The position numbers and the translations under genes were made by a program. A stretch of 64,000 nt of DNA from Novosphingobium sp. 9 (GTDB lineage: Bacteria; Pseudomonadota; Alphaproteobacteria; Sphingomonadales; Sphingomonadaceae), in contig NZ_CP022708.1 of NCBI RefSeq assembly GCF_025340265.1, positions 1,321,076 through 1,385,075 of the forward strand. The letters run 5' to 3'. The stretch's first letter is position 1; every line of letters begins with the position of its first letter. Positions 45,735 through 56,101 of the stretch are shown here, in pieces. Below the pieces are notes generated by a model. It saw nothing but the letters and a program-made list of their open reading frames with translations, was not told the origin of the DNA and did not search any database.

Positions 45735-46499
45735 ATGTCGGAACGTATCAAACTTTACCAGCGCGTCGCCCAGCAGCTTGAGCAGTTCATCCGCGATGGC
45801 CGCTATCAGCCGGGCATGCGCCTTCCGGCCGAGCGCGACCTTGCAGAGCAGTTCGAGGTCAGCCGTCCCACCGTGCGCGAGGCGGTGATCGCGCTGGAAA
45901 TCCGCGAGCTGGTCGAAGTGCGCCACGGCTCGGGCGTCTATGTCAGCGAAGTGCTGCCCGCCAGCCCGCAGCCGACCGAACTCAACGTCGGCGCGTTCGA
46001 GCTGATCGAGGCGCGGATCATGTACGAAGGCGAGGCCGCCGCGCTCGCCGCTTCGGTGATGACCGAGGAGGAACTGGCCCAGCTTGGCCGGATTCTGGGG
46101 GAGATGGATCGTTTCGACCCGGCCTCCGCCGAGGAACTCGCTGCCGATCGCGCCTTTCACCTCGCGATTGCCGAGGGCACGCGCAATTCGCTGGTCGCGC
46201 AGTCGATCGAGCACTTGTGGGACTTGCGCGAACAGTCGCCGCTGTGCAGCCACATGTTCGCACAGGCACGGCGCGAGGGCGTCAATCCCCGCCCGGACGA
46301 GCATCGCCAGATCTACGACGCCCTGCTGGCCCGCGATGCCGACGCCGCACGCAGCGCGATGCGCGCCCACCTCACGCGCGTTTCCGAAGACCTGCTGGTC
46401 GTCACCGAACTCGAACTGATCGAGAAGGCGAAGCAGGAAATCACCGAGAAGCGCCGCCGCCTCGGCGGCTCCCCCGCACGCGAGGCCATGGCGCGCTAA
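45735..46499 (+). CDS. FadR-subfamily GntR regulator, probably of mannonate catabolism
   Basis: A 254-residue regulator. The N-terminal winged helix is RDLAEQFEVSRPTVREAVIA with the wing VRHGSGVYV. The helical FCD domain carries conserved metal/ligand residues (DRAFHLAIAEGTRNSL, and DEHRQIYDALLARDADAARS with the usual His). The start is the ATG of MSERIKLYQ at 45735. It lies 85 bp after manD on the same strand. Sequence and context resemble UxuR/ExuR-type control, with a sugar acid as likely inducer. Confidence 0.88.
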   Translation: MSERIKLYQRVAQQLEQFIRDGRYQPGMRLPAERDLAEQFEVSRPTVREAVIALEIRELVEVRHGSGVYVSEVLPASPQPTELNVGAFELIEARIMYEGEAAALAASVMTEEELAQLGRILGEMDRFDPASAEELAADRAFHLAIAEGTRNSLVAQSIEHLWDLREQSPLCSHMFAQARREGVNPRPDEHRQIYDALLARDADAARSAMRAHLTRVSEDLLVVTELELIEKAKQEITEKRRRLGGSPAREAMAR

Positions 46500-46513
46500 G
46501 GCGTCTTGGAGAC

Positions 46514-46701
46514 TGATTTCAAAATGCCTGCGGGGCATTTTGATGCGGCACCGGCCCGCGCCCGTCCCGATGACCACGAATATGTCCGGGGGACATATTC
46601 GCTGAGGGGGCCTGCCACCCAACGATAGTATCCTGCGGGTGGTAGGGTGGGGGCGCGGGCCGGTGCCGCAAAATTCGCATTGCGCGAATTTTCAAACGAA
46701 C
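46514..46701. repeat. Composite palindromic repeat element, copy 1
   Basis: It begins with a near-match to the terminal repeat (GATTTCAAAA, 46515-46524) and ends TTTTCAAACGAA. In order it holds: hairpin AAAATGCC-TGCGG-GGCATTTT (46521-46541); the left arm GCGGCACCGGCCCGCGCCC (46545-46563); hairpin GAATATGTCC-GGG-GGACATATTC (46578-46600); CCACCC...GGGTGG (46615-46642); the right arm GGGCGCGGGCCGGTGCCGC (46651-46669), a perfect 19-bp complement of the left arm; and hairpin AAAATTCGC-ATTGC-GCGAATTTT (46670-46692). It fills the gap between convergent genes and its right end starts at the first bases after the Lrp stop codon. A second copy lies at 53933-54103. Confidence 0.85.
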
Positions 46702-46703
46702 TT

Positions 46704-47210
46704 TTACGGCACCACGATCTCCGCGCCCGCCTTCACCCGATCGAGCGCGATGAAGCTGCGGAAGGCGGCGACTGCCTCGTTATCGGCAAACAGGCGCCGG
46801 GTGATCGCTTCGTAGGCGACCATGTCCTGCGTCACGATCACCAGCATGAAACTGATGCCGCCGGTCACGTAATAGCACTGCTGCACTTCGGGCGCGGCGA
46901 GGAACAGCGCCTTGGCGCCATCGACCGTGCGCGGGCGCTCGTCCACCAGATCGACCTCGACGATCGAGGTTATCGTCATCCCCAGCGCGCGGGTATCGAG
47001 GATGGCGACATTGCGCTCGATGATCCCTGCCGCTTCCATCGCCGCGATCCGCCGCTGCACCGCCGCCGTCGAGAGGTTCACCGCCTCGGCGATCCGGCGC
47101 TGGGGCATATGGCTGTCGCGCTGGACGATGCGCAGGATCGCGCGGTCGAACGAATCGAGTTCGCGGCGCGATCGGGCAGATTCGGGGCTTTTCGTCGTCC
47201 TGGCGGTCAT
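46704..47210 (-). CDS. Lrp/AsnC-family transcriptional regulator
   Basis: A 168-residue regulator with the N-terminal AsnC helix-turn-helix (RRIAEAVNLSTAAVQRRIAA) and the RAM ligand-binding domain (TSIVEVDLVDERPRTVDGAK; YYVTGGISFMLVIVTQDM). The start is taken at the ATG at 47210; the open frame reaches a GTG at 47282. It is divergent from an EamA exporter, a common Lrp-exporter pair for amino-acid efflux. Its stop codon touches the composite repeat element. Confidence 0.87.
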   Translation of the reverse strand: MTARTTKSPESARSRRELDSFDRAILRIVQRDSHMPQRRIAEAVNLSTAAVQRRIAAMEAAGIIERNVAILDTRALGMTITSIVEVDLVDERPRTVDGAKALFLAAPEVQQCYYVTGGISFMLVIVTQDMVAYEAITRRLFADNEAVAAFRSFIALDRVKAGAEIVVP

Positions 47211-47293
47211 GAACGGGTTTTTGTTGCATCGAAGGGCATAATCAAGAGCGCAAAACCCGTCCGAGGCAGGGTAGTTCTTCACCAGACGCCGCC

Positions 47294-48304
47294 ATGGAGC
47301 CCGATGTGACGCAGACCTTTGCCAAAAGCGCCCGCTCGGGCGGCGCCTCTACAAGCCAGACGACAAGCAGGACCGGCTTGGGCATCGCCTGCGGTATGGG
47401 CGCCGGGGCGCTGTGGGGCCTCGTCTTTCTGGCGCCGGAGCTGGTGCGCGCGTTCACCCCGCTGCAACTGGCGATCGGGCGCTATCTTGCGTACGGCCTC
47501 CTTGCCGCTGCCTTGCTCTCCCCGCGCTGGGGACGGCTGCTGCGCGTGCTCGACCGGTCGGAATGGCGGGCGCTGGTCTGGCTCGCGCTGACCGGCAACA
47601 CGATCTACTATGTCCTGCTCTCCAGCGCGATCCAGCTGGGCGGCATTGCCATGACCTCGCTGGTGATCGGCTTCCTGCCCGTCGCCGTCACCATCATCGG
47701 CAGTCGCGATCAGGGCGCGGTGCCGCTGCGCAAGCTCGCGCCCTCGCTGGTGCTGTGCATGGGCGGCGCGCTATGCATCGGCTGGCAGGCGCTATCCGCC
47801 CCCGCCTCCGGTTCGACCGCGACACAGATCACCGGCCTCGCCTGCGCCATCGGCGCGCTGGTCTCGTGGACGACTTATGCGGTCTGCAACAGCCGCTGCC
47901 TTGCCCGGCTGGAGCATGTCTCCGCCCACGACTGGAGCCTGCTGACCGGGATCATGACCGGCGCGCAGGCGCTGCTGCTGATCCCCGTCACCGTGCTGTT
48001 CGAGCCACTGCGCCACTCCGGTACGGCATGGCTTCAGTTTACCGGCGTCTCGCTGGCGGTGGCGATATTCGCCTCGATCGTCGGCAACGGGCTGTGGAAC
48101 CGGATGAGCCGCCTGCTGCCGCTGACCATGGTCGGCCAGATGATCCTGTTCGAGACGCTGTTCGCGCTGCTTTATGGCTTCGCGTGGGAGCACCGCCTGC
48201 CCACGCTGCTGGAAGCAGGCGCCTTCGCGCTGGTGGTGCTGAGCGTGACGAGCTGCATCTCCACTCATCAGCGCGCCGCAAAAGTGCTCGCGGCCGTGGA
48301 GTAA
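47294..48304 (+). CDS. EamA-family exporter
   Basis: A 336-residue, ten-helix drug/metabolite transporter with two EamA repeats. The first begins at GIACGMGAGALWGLVFLAPE, and the second at QITGLACAIGALVSWTTYAV. The proline/glycine-rich helix ends (IQLGGIAMTSLVIGFLPVAV) are typical. It is divergent from the Lrp-type regulator with an 83-bp gap, which makes control by that regulator likely. The substrate is unknown. It converges on the sensor kinase gene. Confidence 0.88.
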   Translation: MEPDVTQTFAKSARSGGASTSQTTSRTGLGIACGMGAGALWGLVFLAPELVRAFTPLQLAIGRYLAYGLLAAALLSPRWGRLLRVLDRSEWRALVWLALTGNTIYYVLLSSAIQLGGIAMTSLVIGFLPVAVTIIGSRDQGAVPLRKLAPSLVLCMGGALCIGWQALSAPASGSTATQITGLACAIGALVSWTTYAVCNSRCLARLEHVSAHDWSLLTGIMTGAQALLLIPVTVLFEPLRHSGTAWLQFTGVSLAVAIFASIVGNGLWNRMSRLLPLTMVGQMILFETLFALLYGFAWEHRLPTLLEAGAFALVVLSVTSCISTHQRAAKVLAAVE

Positions 48305-48312
48305 GTGCCCGC

Positions 48313-49675
48313 CTAGCCCGCCCGGCGCAGCCAGAGCGTGGCCCGCAAGCCGCCTTCGGGGCGATTGACCAGCGTGAGGATGCCGCCGAAACGATGCGCC
48401 AGTGCCTCGACGATCGAAAGGCCGAGCCCGACCCCGCCGGTCGAGCGTGCCCGCGAGGTTTCGAGGCGCAGATACGGCTCGGTAAGGCTGCCAAGCTGCG
48501 CCTCGGGTACGCCGGGGCCGCGATCGTCGACCATCACGGCCCAGCCCTCCTGCCCGTCCTCACCCGCCGCCTGCATGAGCGCGACATGCGCCTGGCCGCC
48601 GCCATAGCGCATGGCGTTGTCGAGCACATTGGCGAGCATGCGGTGCAGGGCCACCGGCGTCGCGCGGGCCTGCGCGCGGCGCGGCAGTCGGGCGAGCGTC
48701 ACCGCCTCGCCGCTCTCGCGGCGCAGGCGAACGACGGTTTCCAACTCGCGCACCAGATCGACACGCGCGGCGCCATCGTCAGGCACCGCGCCGCCCTCGC
48801 CCGCCCCCTGCTGCGCGAAGGTCAGCGTATCGTCGAGCAGCAGGCGCATTTCGGCGAGGTCGGCACGGGTGGCCTCGCGCTGGTATTCGTCCTCGATGAA
48901 GTCGCTGCGCAGTTCCAGCCGGGTCAGGTAGGTGCGGTAATCGTGGGCGACCGCCGCGATCATCCGTGTGCGCTCCTCCAGCAGCCGGTGCAGCCGCGCG
49001 CGCATCTCGTGGAAGGCGCGGCCCAGTTCGCGCAACTCGTCGGCACCGCGCACCAGCAGGCCTTGCGCATCGTCGGCACGGACCGCGCGCACCAGCCGCT
49101 CGACCGGCACTGTCGTCTGCGCGGCCAGTGCGAAAATCACCAGCACGTCGAGCACCAGCAACCCCAGCACCAGCATCGGGAAATGGTTCACGAACGCCGC
49201 CATCCGCTTGACTGTGGTACGCTGGATCTCCACCGCACCGCCGCCATGCAGTGCCACGGCGACATGGATCGGCGCGGTCGAAAAGCCGTTCTGCGTGTCC
49301 AGCCAGCCATAGGCGATCCGCCCCTGCGCGCGAAAGCGGAACGCGCGCCCCGCCAGCGCTTGCGCATAACCGCGCACTTGCGGGGGCTCGGCTGGAGACT
49401 GGCAGCGGGCGGCGGCAGCGCGGCGATCAGGCGAACGTCCTGCCGGTCGTTGTTGAGCGCGGCCACCACTTCGCCCCGCGCAGGCGGCGGCACGGTCTCC
49501 AGCGCATGGACGATGGCGCTCACCCGCTCGACGGTGGGCACCAGATAGAGCGCATCGTCCTGCCGCTGGCCGGTCTCGACCACCGCCACCGTCAGCGCGC
49601 CGAGCAGCAGCGCATGAAGCACGACGATCGCGCCGATGCGCAGCCGCAGCCCCCAAACAGGCTGCTTTTCAGCAC
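48313..49675 (-). CDS. Two-component sensor histidine kinase, two frameshifts as read
   Basis: An inner-membrane kinase of ~454 residues. The GTG at 49675 overlaps the stop of the response regulator gene (coupled translation). Helix 1 is LRIGAIVVLHALLLGALTVA and helix 2 FPMLVLGLLVLDVLVIFAL, with a periplasmic sensor loop between. HAMP and the H-box MIAAVAHDYRTYLTRLELR follow; here HDYRTY replaces the usual HDLRTP. The ATPase shows MLANVLDNAMRYG and STGGVGLGLSIVEAL. Two breaks occur, in the five-C run at 49650-49654 and the five-G run at 49382-49386. Adding one base to each restores SLFGGLRLRIG and QPSPPQVRGYAQ. Confidence 0.85.
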
Positions 49676-50457
49676 CGGCGGACCTGCGGCGCGAAGAGAT
49701 AACCGTCGCCGCGCACGGTGCGGATCATTAGCGGCTCGCGCGGGTCTTCGCCCAGCTTGCGGCGCAGGCGGCCGATCTGCACGTCGATCACCCGGTCCAC
49801 CGGATTGGCGATGCCGCCGCGCGTCGCATCGATCAGCAACTCGCGCGAGAGCACCTGTTGGGGATGGAGGACGAGGACGTGCAGCAGGTCGAACTCGCTG
49901 GTGGTGAGCGTGACCGGCTGGCCTTGCGGATCGGTAAGGTCGCGCGCGCCGGGGCTGAGCCGCCAGCCGTTGAATTCGAACGCTTCCGGTTCGGACGAGA
50001 GCGCCGCACCGGCAGCGGCGGTAATGTCGCGCGTGCGGCGGATCACCGAGCGGACGCGAGCGAGCAATTCGCGCGAGTTGAACGGCTTGGCGAGATAGTC
50101 GTCGGCCCCCAGTTCCAGCCCGACGATACGGTCGATGGCATCGCTCTTGGCTGTCACGATCAGGATCGGCAGGCGCGGCCACTGGGCGCGCAGGGTGCGG
50201 CAGATGACAAGGCCATCCTCGCCGGGCAGCATGAGGTCGAGGATCAGGCAATCGAGCCGCGCGAGAACGGCAGGATCGCTGACCGGTGCGGAGGACGCGG
50301 CGGCGAGCACCTCGAAGCCCTCCCGCTGCAACAGTGCGGCGACGAGTTCGCGAATGCCGGGATCGTCCTCCACCACGGCGATGAAACCGGCGCTGGAGGC
50401 GGCGCCGGACGCGGCATCGGTCGCGCTCAGGCGGTTTTGTGTCGGGTTGTGCTGCAT
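49669..50457 (-). CDS. OmpR-family response regulator
   Basis: A 262-residue regulator: receiver domain with acidic pocket (AVVEDDPG), phospho-acceptor Asp in LILDLMLPGEDGL and Lys in LAKPFNSRELLARV, then a winged-helix output domain (LTTSEFDLLHVLVLHPQQVL; VDVQIGRLRRKLG type signature, read here as IDVQIGRLRRKLG). It forms an operon with the overlapping sensor kinase. Targets and signal are unknown; an EF-hand protein gene lies 115 bp upstream on the same strand. Confidence 0.93.
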   Translation of the reverse strand: MQHNPTQNRLSATDAASGAASSAGFIAVVEDDPGIRELVAALLQREGFEVLAAASSAPVSDPAVLARLDCLILDLMLPGEDGLVICRTLRAQWPRLPILIVTAKSDAIDRIVGLELGADDYLAKPFNSRELLARVRSVIRRTRDITAAAGAALSSEPEAFEFNGWRLSPGARDLTDPQGQPVTLTTSEFDLLHVLVLHPQQVLSRELLIDATRGGIANPVDRVIDVQIGRLRRKLGEDPREPLMIRTVRGDGYLFAPQVRRC

Positions 50458-50498
50458 CTGGGGGCTATTCTACCCGCCTGGCCCCGGATGGCAAAGCG

Positions 50499-50541
50499 GC
50501 GCGCCGGTCCCGCGTCAGGAAGGGGGAGCGGGACGGCGCGC
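50499..50541 (-). terminator. Hairpin downstream of the EF-hand gene
   Basis: GCGCGCCGGTCCCGC (50499-50513) pairs with GCGGGACGGCGCGC (50528-50541) with one bulged base. It is a strong GC stem 30 bp past the EF-hand stop and before the response regulator gene. It lacks a T-run. Confidence 0.5.
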
Positions 50542-50572
50542 CGACGGCCGGGACCGGGCGTGGTATGCGCGA

Positions 50573-50854
50573 TCAGTGGCCGAATTTCGCCATCGCCGCC
50601 TGCATTTCCGCCAGCGTGATTGCCCCGTCATGGTTGGCATCGATATAGTTGAAGCCGCGCTCGCGGCGTCCCGCTGCCTGCCATTCGGCGAGCGTGATCT
50701 TGCCGTCGTGGTTGGTGTCGGCGGCGTCGAACATCGCCTTCATCTTGTCGGCGGAAGCCTGCGCCATGGCAGGCGCGGCACCGAACGAAAAGCCGGAAAT
50801 CAGCGCCACACCGAGCACGGCGCCGAGGCGGGCAGGGATTTTACGAAGGGTCAT
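50573..50854 (-). CDS. Small periplasmic EF-hand calcium-binding protein
   Basis: A 93-residue protein with a signal peptide (LGAVLGVALISGFSFGAAPAMA) and two canonical EF-hand loops, DTNHDGKITLAE and DANHDGAITLAE, each with Asp/Asn/Asp ligands and a final Glu. It should bind calcium in the periplasm. The ATG at 50854 is chosen because it opens the signal peptide. A calcium buffer or sensor role is inference. A GC-rich hairpin (50916-50947) lies in its leader or promoter. Confidence 0.85.
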   Translation of the reverse strand: MTLRKIPARLGAVLGVALISGFSFGAAPAMAQASADKMKAMFDAADTNHDGKITLAEWQAAGRRERGFNYIDANHDGAITLAEMQAAMAKFGH

Positions 50855-50915
50855 CGCAGGGCATGTCCTTGTCTGCGGGACGCATGATCGCATCCCCGGA
50901 ATGCCCAACGAGTAG

Positions 50916-50947
50916 CACCGCCCCCACAGTGAAGTTGGGGGGCGGTG
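50916..50947 (-). promoter_or_regulatory. GC-rich hairpin upstream of the EF-hand gene
   Basis: CACCGCCCCCA pairs with TGGGGGGCGGTG, with one extra G, around a 9-base loop, 62 bp upstream of the EF-hand start. It may be a 5' leader structure or a barrier to readthrough from the aldehyde dehydrogenase gene. Confidence 0.4.
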
Positions 50948-50985
50948 TTCGGTTATGTAACAGATTGTGAACACACAAAGGACAT

Positions 50986-51064
50986 CCGGCGCGGATGCTG
51001 CCTGAGCCGGGAGAGGCCGCGGCATCCGCGCCGGACCGGGAGCACCCGCGAAGTCGGTGCTCCC
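50986..51064 (-). terminator. Two strong hairpins downstream of the aldehyde dehydrogenase
   Basis: GGGAGCACC / GGTGCTCCC (51038-51064, 9-bp stem) lies 12 bp past the stop. A second perfect 13-bp repeat CCGGCGCGGATGC / GCATCCGCGCCGG (50986-50998 and 51022-51034) follows. Neither has a T-run; together they probably stop transcription or protect the mRNA 3' end. Confidence 0.55.
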
Positions 51065-51075
51065 GAGGCGCAAAC

Positions 51076-52599
<1,524 letters not shown>

Positions 52600-52717
52600 G
52601 GCGGGGGATTCCTCTCTAAGAATGCGGCAGCGCGTGTCACTCGCGCCTTGTCCGTGGCCTAGAGATGCGCCTGTTCGCCGGGGGATGCGAGAGGGGCGAC
52701 GTGCTCGTTTACGCGAA

Positions 52718-52737
52718 GTGTTCCAGCGGCGGGACAG
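52718..52737. promoter_or_regulatory. Candidate AcoR-like operator upstream of the aldehyde dehydrogenase
   Basis: GTGTTCC-AGCGGC-GGGACAG matches 12 of 14 arm positions, with the same 6-bp spacer, of the perfect palindrome upstream of the regulator gene (53891-53910). It lies about 119 bp upstream of the dehydrogenase start. Confidence 0.55.
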
Positions 52738-52762
52738 GCGACGGAACGGGGGCGTTCACAGG

Positions 52763-53749
52763 TCAGTGAAGGTCGCCGCCCATGCCAACGCGGTCCATGC
52801 GGCGGTACATCGTCGAGCGACCGATGCCGAGCAGGCGCGCGGCAGCCGCGACATTGCCGCCCGAGCGGGCAAGGGCACGGCGCAGGGCCGCGCGTTCGGC
52901 TTCCTCGAAACCGCCCACGCCCTCGCGGCGCTCTCCGCCATCGAGCACGTCGGACAGCGGACGCGGCGCAAAGCTGGGCTCGCAGCCAAGGCCAAGACGC
53001 TGGCGGGCGAGGCGCGTGGCGCCGATCACCAGATCGTCGCGATCCACCGCCAAGAGCGCCGGACGCGAGCCGAGGCCCGAGCCCTCGCTGCCCGCCAGCA
53101 CAATGCGCGCGCCGGAAAAGCGCTGGCGGAAGAACTCGCGCTCGATGGTACGCGAAGCCTCCTGCACCAGCGCGGCGACCATCGCCGCCGTCGCATCGCC
53201 CAGATCGGCGCGGCAGCTGGAAACGTCGAGCGCGGCGACAAGGCACCCCTCGGGATCGAACACCGGCGCGTCCATGCAGGCAACGCCGATATTGCGGCTG
53301 GCGAAGTGCTCGTTGCGCAGCACGGTGACGGCGCGTTGCTCGACAAGGCAGGTGCCGATACCGTTGGTGCCTTCTGCCGCCTCACTCCACGCCGCGCCTG
53401 CGACGAGGCCGATCGATTCGAAAAGCTCGGTATCGCCGCTGCGCGAGCGCTGTTCGAGGATCACGCCTTCGGCATCGGAGAGCAGCACCGAGCATCCCGA
53501 GGCGCCGACGCTGCCGAACAGCGAGTCGAGAACGGGAGAGGCGACGCGCAGCAGCTCGCCGTTGCGTTCGCGCAGCATGCCAAGGACATTGCCGCCCGCG
53601 CGCCGATCCGCGCGGTCCTGCGCAGGGTCGAGGCCGTGGTGGAGTGCCGAACGGCACCACGATGCCGCCAGCGCCGATTGCGCCGCCGCCTGTCCGGAAT
53701 GCACCGCGCGCAGAACGCGCTCGTTATGGTCGTGTACGCTACCCGCCAT
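52763..53749 (-). CDS. AcoR-like regulator with GAF and Fis domains but no AAA+ domain
   Basis: A 328-residue protein. The N-terminal AcoR-type region (RSALHHGLDP, and the GAF segment SEAAEGTNGIGTCLVEQRAV) senses a small molecule. The C-terminus is a Fis-type helix-turn-helix (AAARLLGIGRSTMYRRMDRV). Full AcoR proteins have ~620-670 residues with a sigma-54 AAA+ domain between these parts; here no Walker motif or GAFTGA loop is present. It must act as a sigma-54-independent regulator. The ATG at 53749 has GGAGAGGAA upstream. The adjacent aldehyde dehydrogenase is the likely target. Confidence 0.85.
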   Translation of the reverse strand: MAGSVHDHNERVLRAVHSGQAAAQSALAASWCRSALHHGLDPAQDRADRRAGGNVLGMLRERNGELLRVASPVLDSLFGSVGASGCSVLLSDAEGVILEQRSRSGDTELFESIGLVAGAAWSEAAEGTNGIGTCLVEQRAVTVLRNEHFASRNIGVACMDAPVFDPEGCLVAALDVSSCRADLGDATAAMVAALVQEASRTIEREFFRQRFSGARIVLAGSEGSGLGSRPALLAVDRDDLVIGATRLARQRLGLGCEPSFAPRPLSDVLDGGERREGVGGFEEAERAALRRALARSGGNVAAAARLLGIGRSTMYRRMDRVGMGGDLH

Positions 53750-53889
53750 CGTTCCTCTCCTTCGCCCGTCCTTATCGGACGGCACGGGGACATTGGGGCG
53801 ATCCTAGCAGATGGGATCGCGTTCTCCGATGGAAAGTTTGGGAGGCGATGGGACACACGCCAAGTCCCCGCCCCGCGGCAGACTATCGA

Positions 53890-53911
53890 GGTGTCCCGGC
53901 AGCGGGACACC
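53890..53911. promoter_or_regulatory. 22-bp perfect palindrome upstream of the AcoR-like regulator
   Basis: GGTGTCCCG-GCAG-CGGGACACC, 9-bp perfect arms, 141 bp upstream of the regulator start. A half-site GGGACAC lies at 53850-53856. The same motif, imperfect, precedes the dehydrogenase gene. It is probably the regulator's own operator. Confidence 0.6.
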
Positions 53912-53932
53912 TTGGGGTCAGTGCTTAGATAG

Positions 53933-54103
53933 CGTTTGAAAAATGCCTGTGCGGGCATTTTTAGGACGGCACCGGCCCCTTTTGCTTTTGGCGCCCCACC
54001 CACCACCCGACGAGAGTATCCTAAACGGGTGGTGGGTGGGGGCGCCTAAAATTACTTTGGGGCCGGTGCCGCTAAATTCGCATTCCGCGAATTTTCAAAC
54101 GAA
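53933..54103. repeat. Composite palindromic repeat element, copy 2
   Basis: It starts CGTTTGAAAA (53933-53942) and ends TTTTCAAACG (54092-54101), a perfect 10-bp terminal inverted repeat. Inside are: hairpin AAAAATGCC...GGCATTTTT (53939-53962); the left arm CGGCACCGGCCCC (53967-53979); a 20-bp stem GGCGCCCCACCCACCACCCG (53990-54009) against 54026-54046 with one bulge; the right arm GGGGCCGGTGCCG (54059-54071); and hairpin AAATTCGC-ATTCC-GCGAATTT (54074-54094). The order and end sequences match copy 1, while the central stem sequence differs but keeps its pairing. The right end abuts the OPT transporter stop codon. Confidence 0.85.
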
Positions 54104-54106
54104 CTC

Positions 54107-56101
54107 TCAGTCCGCCGTCACCAGCTTGCGGGTGCGGGCATAGAGCACCTGGAGCAGCGCGACGAACAGCACCACGCCGATCACCAGCGCCGGGGTCTCG
54201 AAGCCGTCGCCCACCAGCGCCAACGGCGCATCCTTGCCGCTCACCGCGACGATGCCCGCGAAACCGACGCCCCACAGGCTCTCGCCCACGATCAGACCGG
54301 TGGCGGTGAGCACGCCCATGCGGTGCGCGAATTCAGGATCGCGCTGGCGCCCTGCCCAACGGTCATAGAATGTGCCGAGGATCGAGCCGATCACCGTCGG
54401 CAGGATCAGGCTCATCGGCAGATAGATGCCCATGCCCACGGCCAGCGGCGGCAGGCGCAGACGCTTGAGCACGCCCAGCACTTCGTCGAGCACGATGAAG
54501 GCCACGCCTGCCAGCGCGCCCCAGCCGATCATCGCGGTGTTGAGGTTGCCGCCGAGCACGCCCTTGGCCAGTGCCGAGATCAGCGCCGCCTGCGGGGCGG
54601 GCAGCGCGTTGGGTCCGGCACCGGGCACGCCCTGAAAACCGAACGCCGTGTTCAGCAGGTCGAGCACCGGCGGGATCACCAGCGAGCCGAACACCACGCC
54701 GATCACCAGCGCGACCTGCTGCTTCCACGGCGTCGCGCCGATCAGCTGGCCGGTCTTGAGATCCTGCAGGTTGTCGTTCGAGATCGTCGCCACGCCAAAG
54801 ACGATGCCGGTGACGATCAGCGCATAGGCGACGAGCGCGGCGGTCACGTCCGGCGTCTGCTCACGCCCGAACAGGCCCGCCAGCATCAGCGCGGCGGCGA
54901 CCACAGAGAGGATGCCGATGCCCGAAACCGGCGAGTTCGACGCGCCGATAAGCCCGGCCATATAGCCGCAGACCGCCGCGATCAGCAGGCCGATCACCAG
55001 CACGAAGACCAGCGCGCCTGCGATCAGCAGCATTTCCGAACCCGCCAGCGGACCGTGGCCGACAACGCTCCACAGCAGGTAGGCGATCGGGACCAGCGTG
55101 GCCAGCGTCCCAAACAGCACCCACGCGATCGGCATGTCCTGCTCTTCGATGGCCAGCGCCTCGCCCGCGTGCCGCGCGCGGCTGGCGGCCATGGCGGAGC
55201 GTACGCCGCCCACCACCGGCCCGGCGATCTTGAGCAGAGTCCAGATCGCGGCGACGCCGATCACGCCTGCGCCGAAGAAGCGCACGTCCTTGGAGAAGAT
55301 GGCCGAGGCCCAGTCGGACACGTCGCCCGCCATCGGGTGCATCGCCGTCAGCATCGGCAGCAGCACGAACCAGCCGGTAACGAGGCCGACCAGCATCGCC
55401 ATGCCGACAGACAAGCCGACAAGGTGCCCGACGCCGAGCAGCGCCATGGAAAGGCTGCCCGAAACGCCGGTCGCGCCCGAGCCTGCGCGGAACCACGTCC
55501 CGGCTTCGGAAACGGCGAGTTTGGTCTGGGTCAGGATCGCAAAGCCCATCGAGGCGAGCGAATTCCACACCAGCACCGACAGGCCCTTGGCGCTCTCCGC
55601 CGCGCCTTCGCGCGAGCCGGAGCCGACGCGCAGCACTTCCGCTGCCGCATGGCCTTCGGGATAGGGCAGCGGGGTGTCGACCACCAGCGCACGGCGCAAG
55701 GGGACCGAGAACAGCACGCCCAGAATGCCGCCGGTGCCGGTGATCGCCGCCGTGGTCCAGTAGGGGAAGCCCTGCCAGTAGCCGATCATGACAAGACCCG
55801 GCAGCACGAAGATGATCGCCGCCAGCGTGCCCGCCGCGCTCGCCACGGTCTGGACGATGTTGTTCTCGAAGATCGTCGAGTCCCTGAACCCGCGCAGGAT
55901 CGCCATCGAGATGACGGCGGCGGGGATCGAGGTGGCGAAAGTCAGGCCGACCTTGAGGCCGAGGTAGACGTTGGCAGCCGTGAACAGCAGGGTGATGATC
56001 CCGCCCAGCAGCACGCCGCGCAGCGTCAGTTCCCGCAAGCCTGCGGCCCGGCCCGTTACCGCGCCCGTTTCACCCGTCGAAGCCCCCGCTTGCGCTGTCA
56101 T
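54107..56101 (-). CDS. OPT-family oligopeptide transporter
   Basis: A ~664-residue inner-membrane carrier with about 15 helices. Typical OPT stretches are LTLRGVLLGGIITLLFTAAN, ANVYLGLKVGLTFATSIPAA and LPYPEGHAAAEVLRVGSG. The family imports small peptides or metal-chelate conjugates using the proton gradient. The ATG at 56101 has GGGAAGGG upstream; the open frame reaches 56131. The gene fits with the nearby secreted peptidases as a peptide-use function. Its stop touches the second composite repeat element. Confidence 0.9.
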   Translation of the reverse strand: MTAQAGASTGETGAVTGRAAGLRELTLRGVLLGGIITLLFTAANVYLGLKVGLTFATSIPAAVISMAILRGFRDSTIFENNIVQTVASAAGTLAAIIFVLPGLVMIGYWQGFPYWTTAAITGTGGILGVLFSVPLRRALVVDTPLPYPEGHAAAEVLRVGSGSREGAAESAKGLSVLVWNSLASMGFAILTQTKLAVSEAGTWFRAGSGATGVSGSLSMALLGVGHLVGLSVGMAMLVGLVTGWFVLLPMLTAMHPMAGDVSDWASAIFSKDVRFFGAGVIGVAAIWTLLKIAGPVVGGVRSAMAASRARHAGEALAIEEQDMPIAWVLFGTLATLVPIAYLLWSVVGHGPLAGSEMLLIAGALVFVLVIGLLIAAVCGYMAGLIGASNSPVSGIGILSVVAAALMLAGLFGREQTPDVTAALVAYALIVTGIVFGVATISNDNLQDLKTGQLIGATPWKQQVALVIGVVFGSLVIPPVLDLLNTAFGFQGVPGAGPNALPAPQAALISALAKGVLGGNLNTAMIGWGALAGVAFIVLDEVLGVLKRLRLPPLAVGMGIYLPMSLILPTVIGSILGTFYDRWAGRQRDPEFAHRMGVLTATGLIVGESLWGVGFAGIVAVSGKDAPLALVGDGFETPALVIGVVLFVALLQVLYARTRKLVTAD

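Follow-up and report, generated by a model that had tools for sequence, protein, structure and literature searches.

Several families of short repeats resemble the element treated here, which occurs twice in the window (the whole 64,000-nt stretch of Novosphingobium sp. 9 DNA that was analysed) and many more times elsewhere. In passages of PMC5082802, Br-REP1 of Bradyrhizobium is a set of three adjacent stem-loops whose central member is repeated at ~200 sites; it stands alone or with flanking palindromes, lies between convergent genes and in transcribed 3' untranslated regions (UTRs), and is described as fast evolving among related alphaproteobacteria. Bacterial miniature inverted-repeat transposable elements (MITEs), in excerpts of PMC10969869, are short, non-coding and mostly intergenic, with terminal inverted repeats, a target duplication and ends in common with insertion sequences (IS). 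The same excerpts name the Caulobacter CIR repeats. Like the present element, CIR repeats are alphaproteobacterial, intergenic and made of inverted repeats. Repeats of the REP/REPIN-RAYT type, in the parts of PMC3733652 and PMC3116915 that treat them, are intergenic palindromes found in many copies near gene ends.

In its architecture the element is closest to Br-REP1, and in its mechanism to IS-derived MITEs. The central CCGGAATCTCGAGATTCCGG of Br-REP1 is, by eye, unrelated to the core found here (20 nt rather than ~78 nt), and the passages of PMC5082802 mention no terminal repeats, target duplication or transposase. In contrast to the MITEs of the PMC10969869 excerpts, the interior is a conserved, covarying hairpin with a class-wide core rather than a plain deletion derivative of an IS, and no mobilising IS was detected in the source genome. 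The element also departs from REP/REPIN sequences as portrayed in those parts of PMC3733652 and PMC3116915: its copy number does not go along with that of Y1 transposases, and no GTAG/CGTC-type tetranucleotide tag stands at the foot of a 20-40-bp hairpin (GTAG, where present, lies inside the loop in many copies of the source genome, and the core stem is 31 bp). IS5-family insertion sequences have similar GAGNCNGTTTG-like ends and a TNA duplication in five loci (unequal in L302), but they encode a transposase, which the element does not. Caulobacter CIR repeats are tied to CcrM sites (GANTC); with this motif as their mark, the present family differs, since only 4 of 140 cores contain it; among 68 type I ends it occurs in 13.

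Taken together, the observations below make it rather probable that this is a non-autonomous, MITE-like palindromic element mobilised by an IS5-family transposase, whose surviving copies lie at gene 3' ends, possibly as RNA hairpins. In the mechanism proposed, a class-wide core (a 31-bp palindrome), which in the source genome mostly stands between two smaller hairpins and within GAGNCNGTTTGAAAA-like terminal repeats, would be inserted into TNA by a transposase acting in trans, with duplication of the TNA. This duplication would restore a TAA or TGA stop codon, so that insertions at gene ends could persist. A long hairpin in the 3' UTR of one neighbour or of both would then be the expected outcome, and it might shield the 3' end from exonuclease or, between convergent genes, hold back read-through.

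Distribution and fold of the core

A DNA search of the source Novosphingobium genome (the own genome; comparison genomes have G codes and extracted loci L codes) gave 48 matches. The covariance model R1, which was built from 23 cores and scores sequence as well as fold, gave 71 two-strand matches that map to 36 places, two of them within the window. Complete elements are roughly 140-200 bp long and consist of a hairpin, a core of ~78 nt (the 31-bp near-perfect palindrome) and a second hairpin. R1 found matches in 36 of 61 genomes: the own genome, 32 of 36 others of the genus, and 3 of 24 labelled 'same order'. Across the class it matched 33 of 385 genomes, a count that includes the own genome; they represent 22 families and 24 of 277 genera. 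The label 'same class', taken to mean outside the own order, applies to 31 of them. Inspection of the cores of 19 matching class genomes, from 14 families besides the own family, revealed plainly the same motif. (It should be noted that the class scan scored at most 12 candidates per genome, so that copy numbers there are lower bounds.) Two-strand matches number 73 in G005, 58 in G009, 47 in G013 and 119 in G339, and within the genus copy number ranges from 0 to dozens. The elements of G005 (49 sites) and G009 analysed below were taken among the matches listed, with 26 of the 27 listed G009 cores used. The core pattern is also present in 81 stretches of viral-contig records (L384-L463), which may be provirus host flanks or true phage carriage.

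The sequence-only reading of the window had proposed a MITE-like repeat family with terminal inverted repeats and covarying stems, to be checked with a covariance model in this genome and its relatives; further copies were found by such a search, their paired arms are kept, and the proposal is supported. Its remark that it did not recognise a described family also stands, in that no description was found in the literature searched, with few subscription papers and no preprints; the family is apparently undescribed. That the two copies might simply be chance GC-rich terminators has found no support: the further copies in the own and other genomes, together with the fold z-scores given below, refute it, and its probability is negligible.

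Pairing within the core is retained while the letters change. In the set of distinct own cores (22), standard pairs make up 98.4% of the paired cells, and there are 31 two-sided changes against 12.5 in shuffles. Alignment A2 consists of 39 chosen cores, 3 own and 36 that each come from a different other genome (omitted were L040, L049, L051, L053, L055, L056, L060, L061, L063, L066 and L067 of the 29 single-genome loci L040-L068, and L322 among L308-L326). In A2, 97.5% of cells are paired and 116 two-sided changes fall in 15 pairs, compared with 26.3 for shuffles; slid controls give 3-12. Thus the covariation suggested earlier from the two window copies is real, but it is visible only across many copies. 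Sixteen core pairs are invariant in the own set; five of these, which lie outside the C/G runs (A1 columns 2, 3, 4, 8 and 20), vary two-sidedly in 4-14 of the 39 A2 cores, and the other eleven change in 0-1 of 39. Consequently, conservation extends to the fold and also to most pairs of the C/G runs, whereas the spacers and the outer arm covary; fixed runs are partly favoured, because the cores were gathered with a sequence-aware model. This pattern suggests that the fold itself matters. A canonical G-quadruplex motif is found in 208 of 280 arms versus 7.7% of letter-shuffled right halves, a figure biased upwards by the sequence-aware core search.

The core loop is asymmetric (~16-20 nt), and its orientation relative to the flanks is evenly divided, 20 versus 20, among the 40 scorable cases in 85 own and G005 elements. 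Of 38 cores, 8 were removed for having fewer than 28 Watson-Crick pairs; in the 29 distinct 78-nt cores that were left, the mismatched cells are 6 G-T and 8 A-C. Such a lack of strand preference gives no backing to selection that acts on a single RNA strand. A spanning tree of the 29 cores has 34 two-sided versus 25 one-sided changes (5 versus 9 on its shortest edges) and singles out neither template-switch correction nor selection as the cause of the covariation. The flanking stems are diverse, with 37 distinct among 57 own hairpin flanks (of 72), 43 among 77 in G005 (of 98 flanks) and 26 among 31 in G009 (of 52 flanks). In G009, GCACC-type flank hairpins (L086, L214, L229 and others) have varying stems and an outward-read loop that is mostly GGAT or GGAG.

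Element ends and insertion sequences

Members of the main subfamily (type I) end in GAGTCCGTTTGAAAA-like repeats and are flanked by a target duplication of 3 bp, TNA. By script motifs, one TTCGC/TCCGC-type and one ATGCC-type hairpin are present in 18 of 36 own elements and 26 of the 49 listed G005 elements; outward of these hairpins there are typically TTTTCAAACGGACTC-like ends and then TNA. Both type I ends are recognised in 34 of 133 elements, with TNA at both ends in 16 and equal N in 13 (permutation mean 4.2). Addition of seven elements of G170, which belongs to a different family within the class but has ends of this type, raises this to 41 end pairs, with TNA at both ends in 21 and identical N in 17; the permutation mean is 5.7, and 0 of 20000 permutations are as high as 17. 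Altogether TNA is read at 56 of 82 ends.

Closely similar ends (GAGNCNGTTTG-like) bound 5 of the 42 PF13340-located IS loci checked, in four relatives. The IS of L246 (1243 bp) is flanked by TCA/TCA, that of L259 (905 bp) by TAA/TAA, that of L297, seemingly a copy of the one in L259, by TGA/TGA, and that of L299 by TTA/TTA; the flanks in L302 are TCA/TTA. By genome, such an IS with a TNA duplication is seen once each in G024 and G007 and twice in G005; the one in G002 has unequal TNA. The transposases of L246 and L259 match NF033580, of the IS5 family, at 3.9e-71 and 4.1e-68; insertion sequences of this kind are IS427/IS1031-like. Three features by which a MITE is recognised are present: terminal repeats in common with a transposase-bearing element (through the five IS loci of relatives), a target-site duplication (for type I ends; G009-type ends fall outside that result), and a short, multicopy sequence that, small peptides aside, has no coding capacity.

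Genes between closely spaced own-genome cores were considered as transposase candidates, and by eye nothing transposase-like was seen among them. A 94-bp element (L264:1062-1155; own C2:1033461-1033554) has similar terminal repeats and is missing the full core, and a half element lies in L263 near 1518 (own C1:2385817); both are apparent deletion derivatives.

Several observations weigh against mobilisation by an IS5-family transposase. The window copies are each one base off an exact duplication (TTG/TTA and TTA/TCA), and exact 3-mer pairs are a minority (17 of 41 recognised end pairs). None of the three PF13340 loci of the own genome has such an end pair, the terminal-repeat pattern (at most 1 mismatch) yields no pair ~1 kb apart in that genome, and 37 of the 42 IS loci checked are without such ends. 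In two core-rich genomes, G009 and G013, PF13340 has no match, and the ends in G009 differ. Most class-wide copies outside G170 are without type I ends: outward TCAAAC is present in 0 of 52 flanks in G009, 1 of 12 in G339 and 1 of 32 in sixteen other class genomes. (It is present in 13 of 14 flanks in G170 and 5 of 14 in G477.) For the part of the explanation that concerns RNA, the outer hairpins are not called by a terminator scan that requires 5 T in 8, which gave no site in copy 1 and one core-internal site in copy 2; the terminator role assigned to the element by the sequence-only reading is thus unproven. The core-facing T runs of 38 own type I hairpin sides are 3 (11 sides), 4 (17), 5 (9) or 6 (1) long.

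Genomic placement and competing explanations

Classed by the orientation of neighbouring genes, 105 elements of the own genome, G005 and G009 comprise 48 convergent, 52 tandem and 5 divergent cases, compared with 5, 49 and 22 for other gene pairs at the same loci (P 2.5e-9 and 9.5e-6); these counts are approximate, since the simple codon model, trained on the window, misses genes (for example, GntR to the left of copy 1), and 6 of 111 elements fell outside the classes. A recognised type I-like end is present on 70 of 151 sides that face a gene 3' end, and on 23 of these the triplet immediately beyond the element is the stop codon (on 38, the stop falls between -2 and +1 nt). The stop codons TAA and TGA are themselves TNA sites, and since the duplication would rebuild them, insertions at gene ends would be tolerated and survive. 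Insertion into TNA, together with the loss of gene-breaking insertions, can therefore be the source of the stop-codon pattern. In copies that touch a stop codon, the hairpin begins ~11 nt past the stop. Passages of PMC5082802 summarise reports that ribosomes stall at REPs lying within 15 nt of a stop codon; a block to 3' exonucleases and a part in termination are the other effects of REPs given there. A 3'-end role for the present element is plausible.

Filled and empty sites can be compared at the xthA-sleB spacer (117 genomes have an xthA match, and loci were read for 30). The element is present in the own genome, G005 and G072 among 28 readable spacers, and also in G036; the other 25 readable spacers, 24-290 nt long, are without it. 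The corresponding comparison for copy 2 was uninformative: among 80 OPT-gene loci from named genomes there is no core beside OPT and no synteny beyond OPT. Of the 36 own sites, 2 clearly share neighbours with the 49 listed G005 sites (their flank stems differ), and 1 gives a weak partial match. With so few sites in common, turnover looks fast. The xthA-sleB copy of L270 (G072) has lost most of its core palindrome and keeps both outer hairpins. Other palindromes, of a CCCGCGAAAGCGGGG type and a GCGAAGCGAAGCAACCCAGGG-like type, lie in or near the spacer downstream of xthA in L290 (G106), L280 (G029), L285 (G032) and L267 (G035), as if spacers of this kind collected palindromes from several families.

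On a larger scale, the copies are unevenly spread along some replicons. Rayleigh P values are 0.018 for own C1 (31 copies), 0.0015 for own C2 (5), 0.038 for G005 C1 (44), below 5e-5 for G339 (55 listed copies) and 0.51 for G170 (14). The switch of skew from - to +, read as the origin, lies at 0.52-0.75 Mb in own C1, at 20-170 kb in own C2 and at 1.97-2.1 Mb in G339, on the copy-dense side in all three. A DnaA-like motif is found at the start of own C1, which has 0 of 31 copies between 1.75 and 2.25 Mb (the terminus by GC skew); in own C2, 5 of 5 copies lie within 105 kb of the contig ends; and in G339 the centre of the 55 listed copies is at 1.71 Mb, not far from a skew origin placed at ~2.0 Mb. 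This clustering on the origin side may reflect old backbone versus accessory DNA.

A different arrangement of cause and carrier would make the class-wide core the functional or selfish unit, recognised by way of its fixed C/G runs and its loop (by a protein, or as a G-quadruplex or hairpin) and taken up by several unrelated kinds of mobile ends, so that IS5-type ends are merely its carrier in some lineages. The same core has other flanks in G009 (GCACCCAACAAA or CTGTTTCAG types), short hairpins (6-7 bp; 3 flanks of the 12) in G339, and TAATCAAAC-type ends in G477, and the eleven nearly fixed pairs beside five variable pairs outside the C/G runs, the excess of G-quadruplex motifs and the evenly divided loop orientation all fit it as well. 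However, no candidate protein was found, the sequence-scoring model partly favours fixed runs, and the outward TCAAAC that recurs in G170 and G477 fits one kind of end there. This explanation seems unlikely, though by no means far-fetched. An extension of it, which is at least as doubtful, is that one core with base-specific G/C runs and a freely turning loop is a shared mobile-repeat module across many alphaproteobacterial families, the majority of which belong to other orders than the own one; it would be carried by different ends, recognised as hairpin, G-quadruplex or duplex by a host or transposition factor, and accumulating at stop codons and near origins.

Placement at 3' ends, the avoidance of divergent pairs, the compensatory changes in stems and the few common sites, such as xthA-sleB in the own genome, G005, G072 and G036, could also be explained by a purely cis-acting RNA, that is, by selected, vertically inherited and non-mobile bidirectional terminators or 3' stabilisers. 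We consider this quite improbable given the TNA duplication and the insertion sequences with matching ends, the scarcity of own sites that share neighbours with G005 sites, the range of copy number within the genus, mismatches that have no strand preference, and T tracts that are short. Mobilisation as a REP/REPIN family by RAYT, a Y1 tyrosine transposase, is very improbable. The copies are palindromic, intergenic and multicopy, with GTAG in many own loops, and Y1_Tnp matches are present in the core-bearing own genome (1, with an internal stop), G010 (5) and G042 (4). Yet the high-copy genomes G005, G009 and G013 have no Y1_Tnp match (PF01797, searched in 61 genomes), G003 and G025 have 3 and 1 such matches and no cores, and GTAG sits in the loop rather than at the hairpin foot. 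In addition, a TNA duplication fits DDE, not Y1, chemistry. The earlier comparison to REP/BIME sequences is therefore not upheld in the strict sense, since Y1/RAYT transposases do not track the copies.

The two window copies and their meaning

Both window copies have the order of parts first read from the sequence, namely an outer hairpin, arms that contain GGCACCGGCC/GGCCGGTGCC, a right hairpin and, directly after it, TTTTCAAACGAA. Each is slightly longer than had been supposed, extending over ~46509-46703 (copy 1) and ~53928-54106 (copy 2). Copy 1 lies between convergent genes, a GntR/FCD gene (stop 46497-46499) and an Lrp/AsnC gene; the neighbours of copy 2 are a GAF/Fis-type regulator gene, whose 5' end faces it, and an OPT transporter gene, which faces it with its 3' end. 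As first noted, the copies meet minus-strand genes for Lrp/AsnC and OPT, but there is no one-base gap: the right ends directly touch the stop codons, at 46704-46706 (Lrp/AsnC) and 54107-54109 (OPT; TCA on the + strand).

Copy 1 begins with a degenerate terminal repeat, GAGACTGATTTC (46509-46520, + strand, assigned by comparison with the ends of other copies); the triplet before it is TTG, at a position that in many other copies is occupied by TNA. It continues with an ATGCC-type left hairpin (side B, 46519-46543), a core palindrome of a 121-nt subtype (46547-46667) with a nested hairpin in its left arm (46577-46601), a TTCGC-type right hairpin (side A, 46670-46692), and a right terminal repeat (reverse complement AAGTTCGTTTGAAAA, 46689-46703, - strand) that adjoins the Lrp/AsnC stop. 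The 121-nt subtype occurs at 4 places in the own genome including copy 1 (one is 135 nt) and at 6 in G005, where the nested stem differs though it is mostly paired. In copy 2, TTA (53925-53927) precedes the left terminal repeat GATAGCGTTTGAAAA (53928-53942, + strand), which is followed by a left hairpin (side B, 53939-53962), a core palindrome with ~16-nt inserts in both arms (53968-54070; inner stem and loop 53994-54041), a right hairpin (side A, 54074-54094) and a right terminal repeat (reverse complement GAGTTCGTTTGAAAA, 54092-54106, - strand) adjoining the OPT stop. The perfect inverted pair CGTTTGAAAA/TTTTCAAACG described for copy 2 is confirmed.

Both copies fold far below their shuffles (z -8.1 for copy 1 and -11.1 for copy 2, with 0 of 200 shuffles as low in each case). 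Contrary to what had been claimed, the middle stems are not fully paired: copy 1 contains the nested hairpin, and the inserts of copy 2 are only partly complementary and form an internal loop in the predicted fold. A scan of the window against Rfam gave 0 matches at the gathering cut-off; sub-threshold Rfam matches in 6 loci, mostly to microRNA hairpins, were taken to reflect long hairpins in general. A separate perfect 10-bp inverted repeat, AGGTGTCCCG/CGGGACACCT (53889-53912), lies between copy 2 and the GAF/Fis regulator gene, ahead of the gene start, and may serve this gene as an operator. Features that the sequence-only reading missed are the TNA duplication, the connection with IS5, the presence of the core across the class and the loop in either orientation.

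If the element is indeed an IS5-mobilised MITE-like repeat, it would constitute an apparently undescribed repeat family, detected by the model in 22 families of the class, with a covariance model usable for genome annotation, and it would tie an RNA-like covarying fold to IS5-type transposition. It could then be asked whether a transposon whose insertion site is itself a stop codon can become a regulatory part of gene 3' ends. Next to freely covarying spacers, the fixed C/G runs may point to a specific binding partner, and if the core were a shared module, unrelated genomes would have a common 3'-end and chromosome-position signal.

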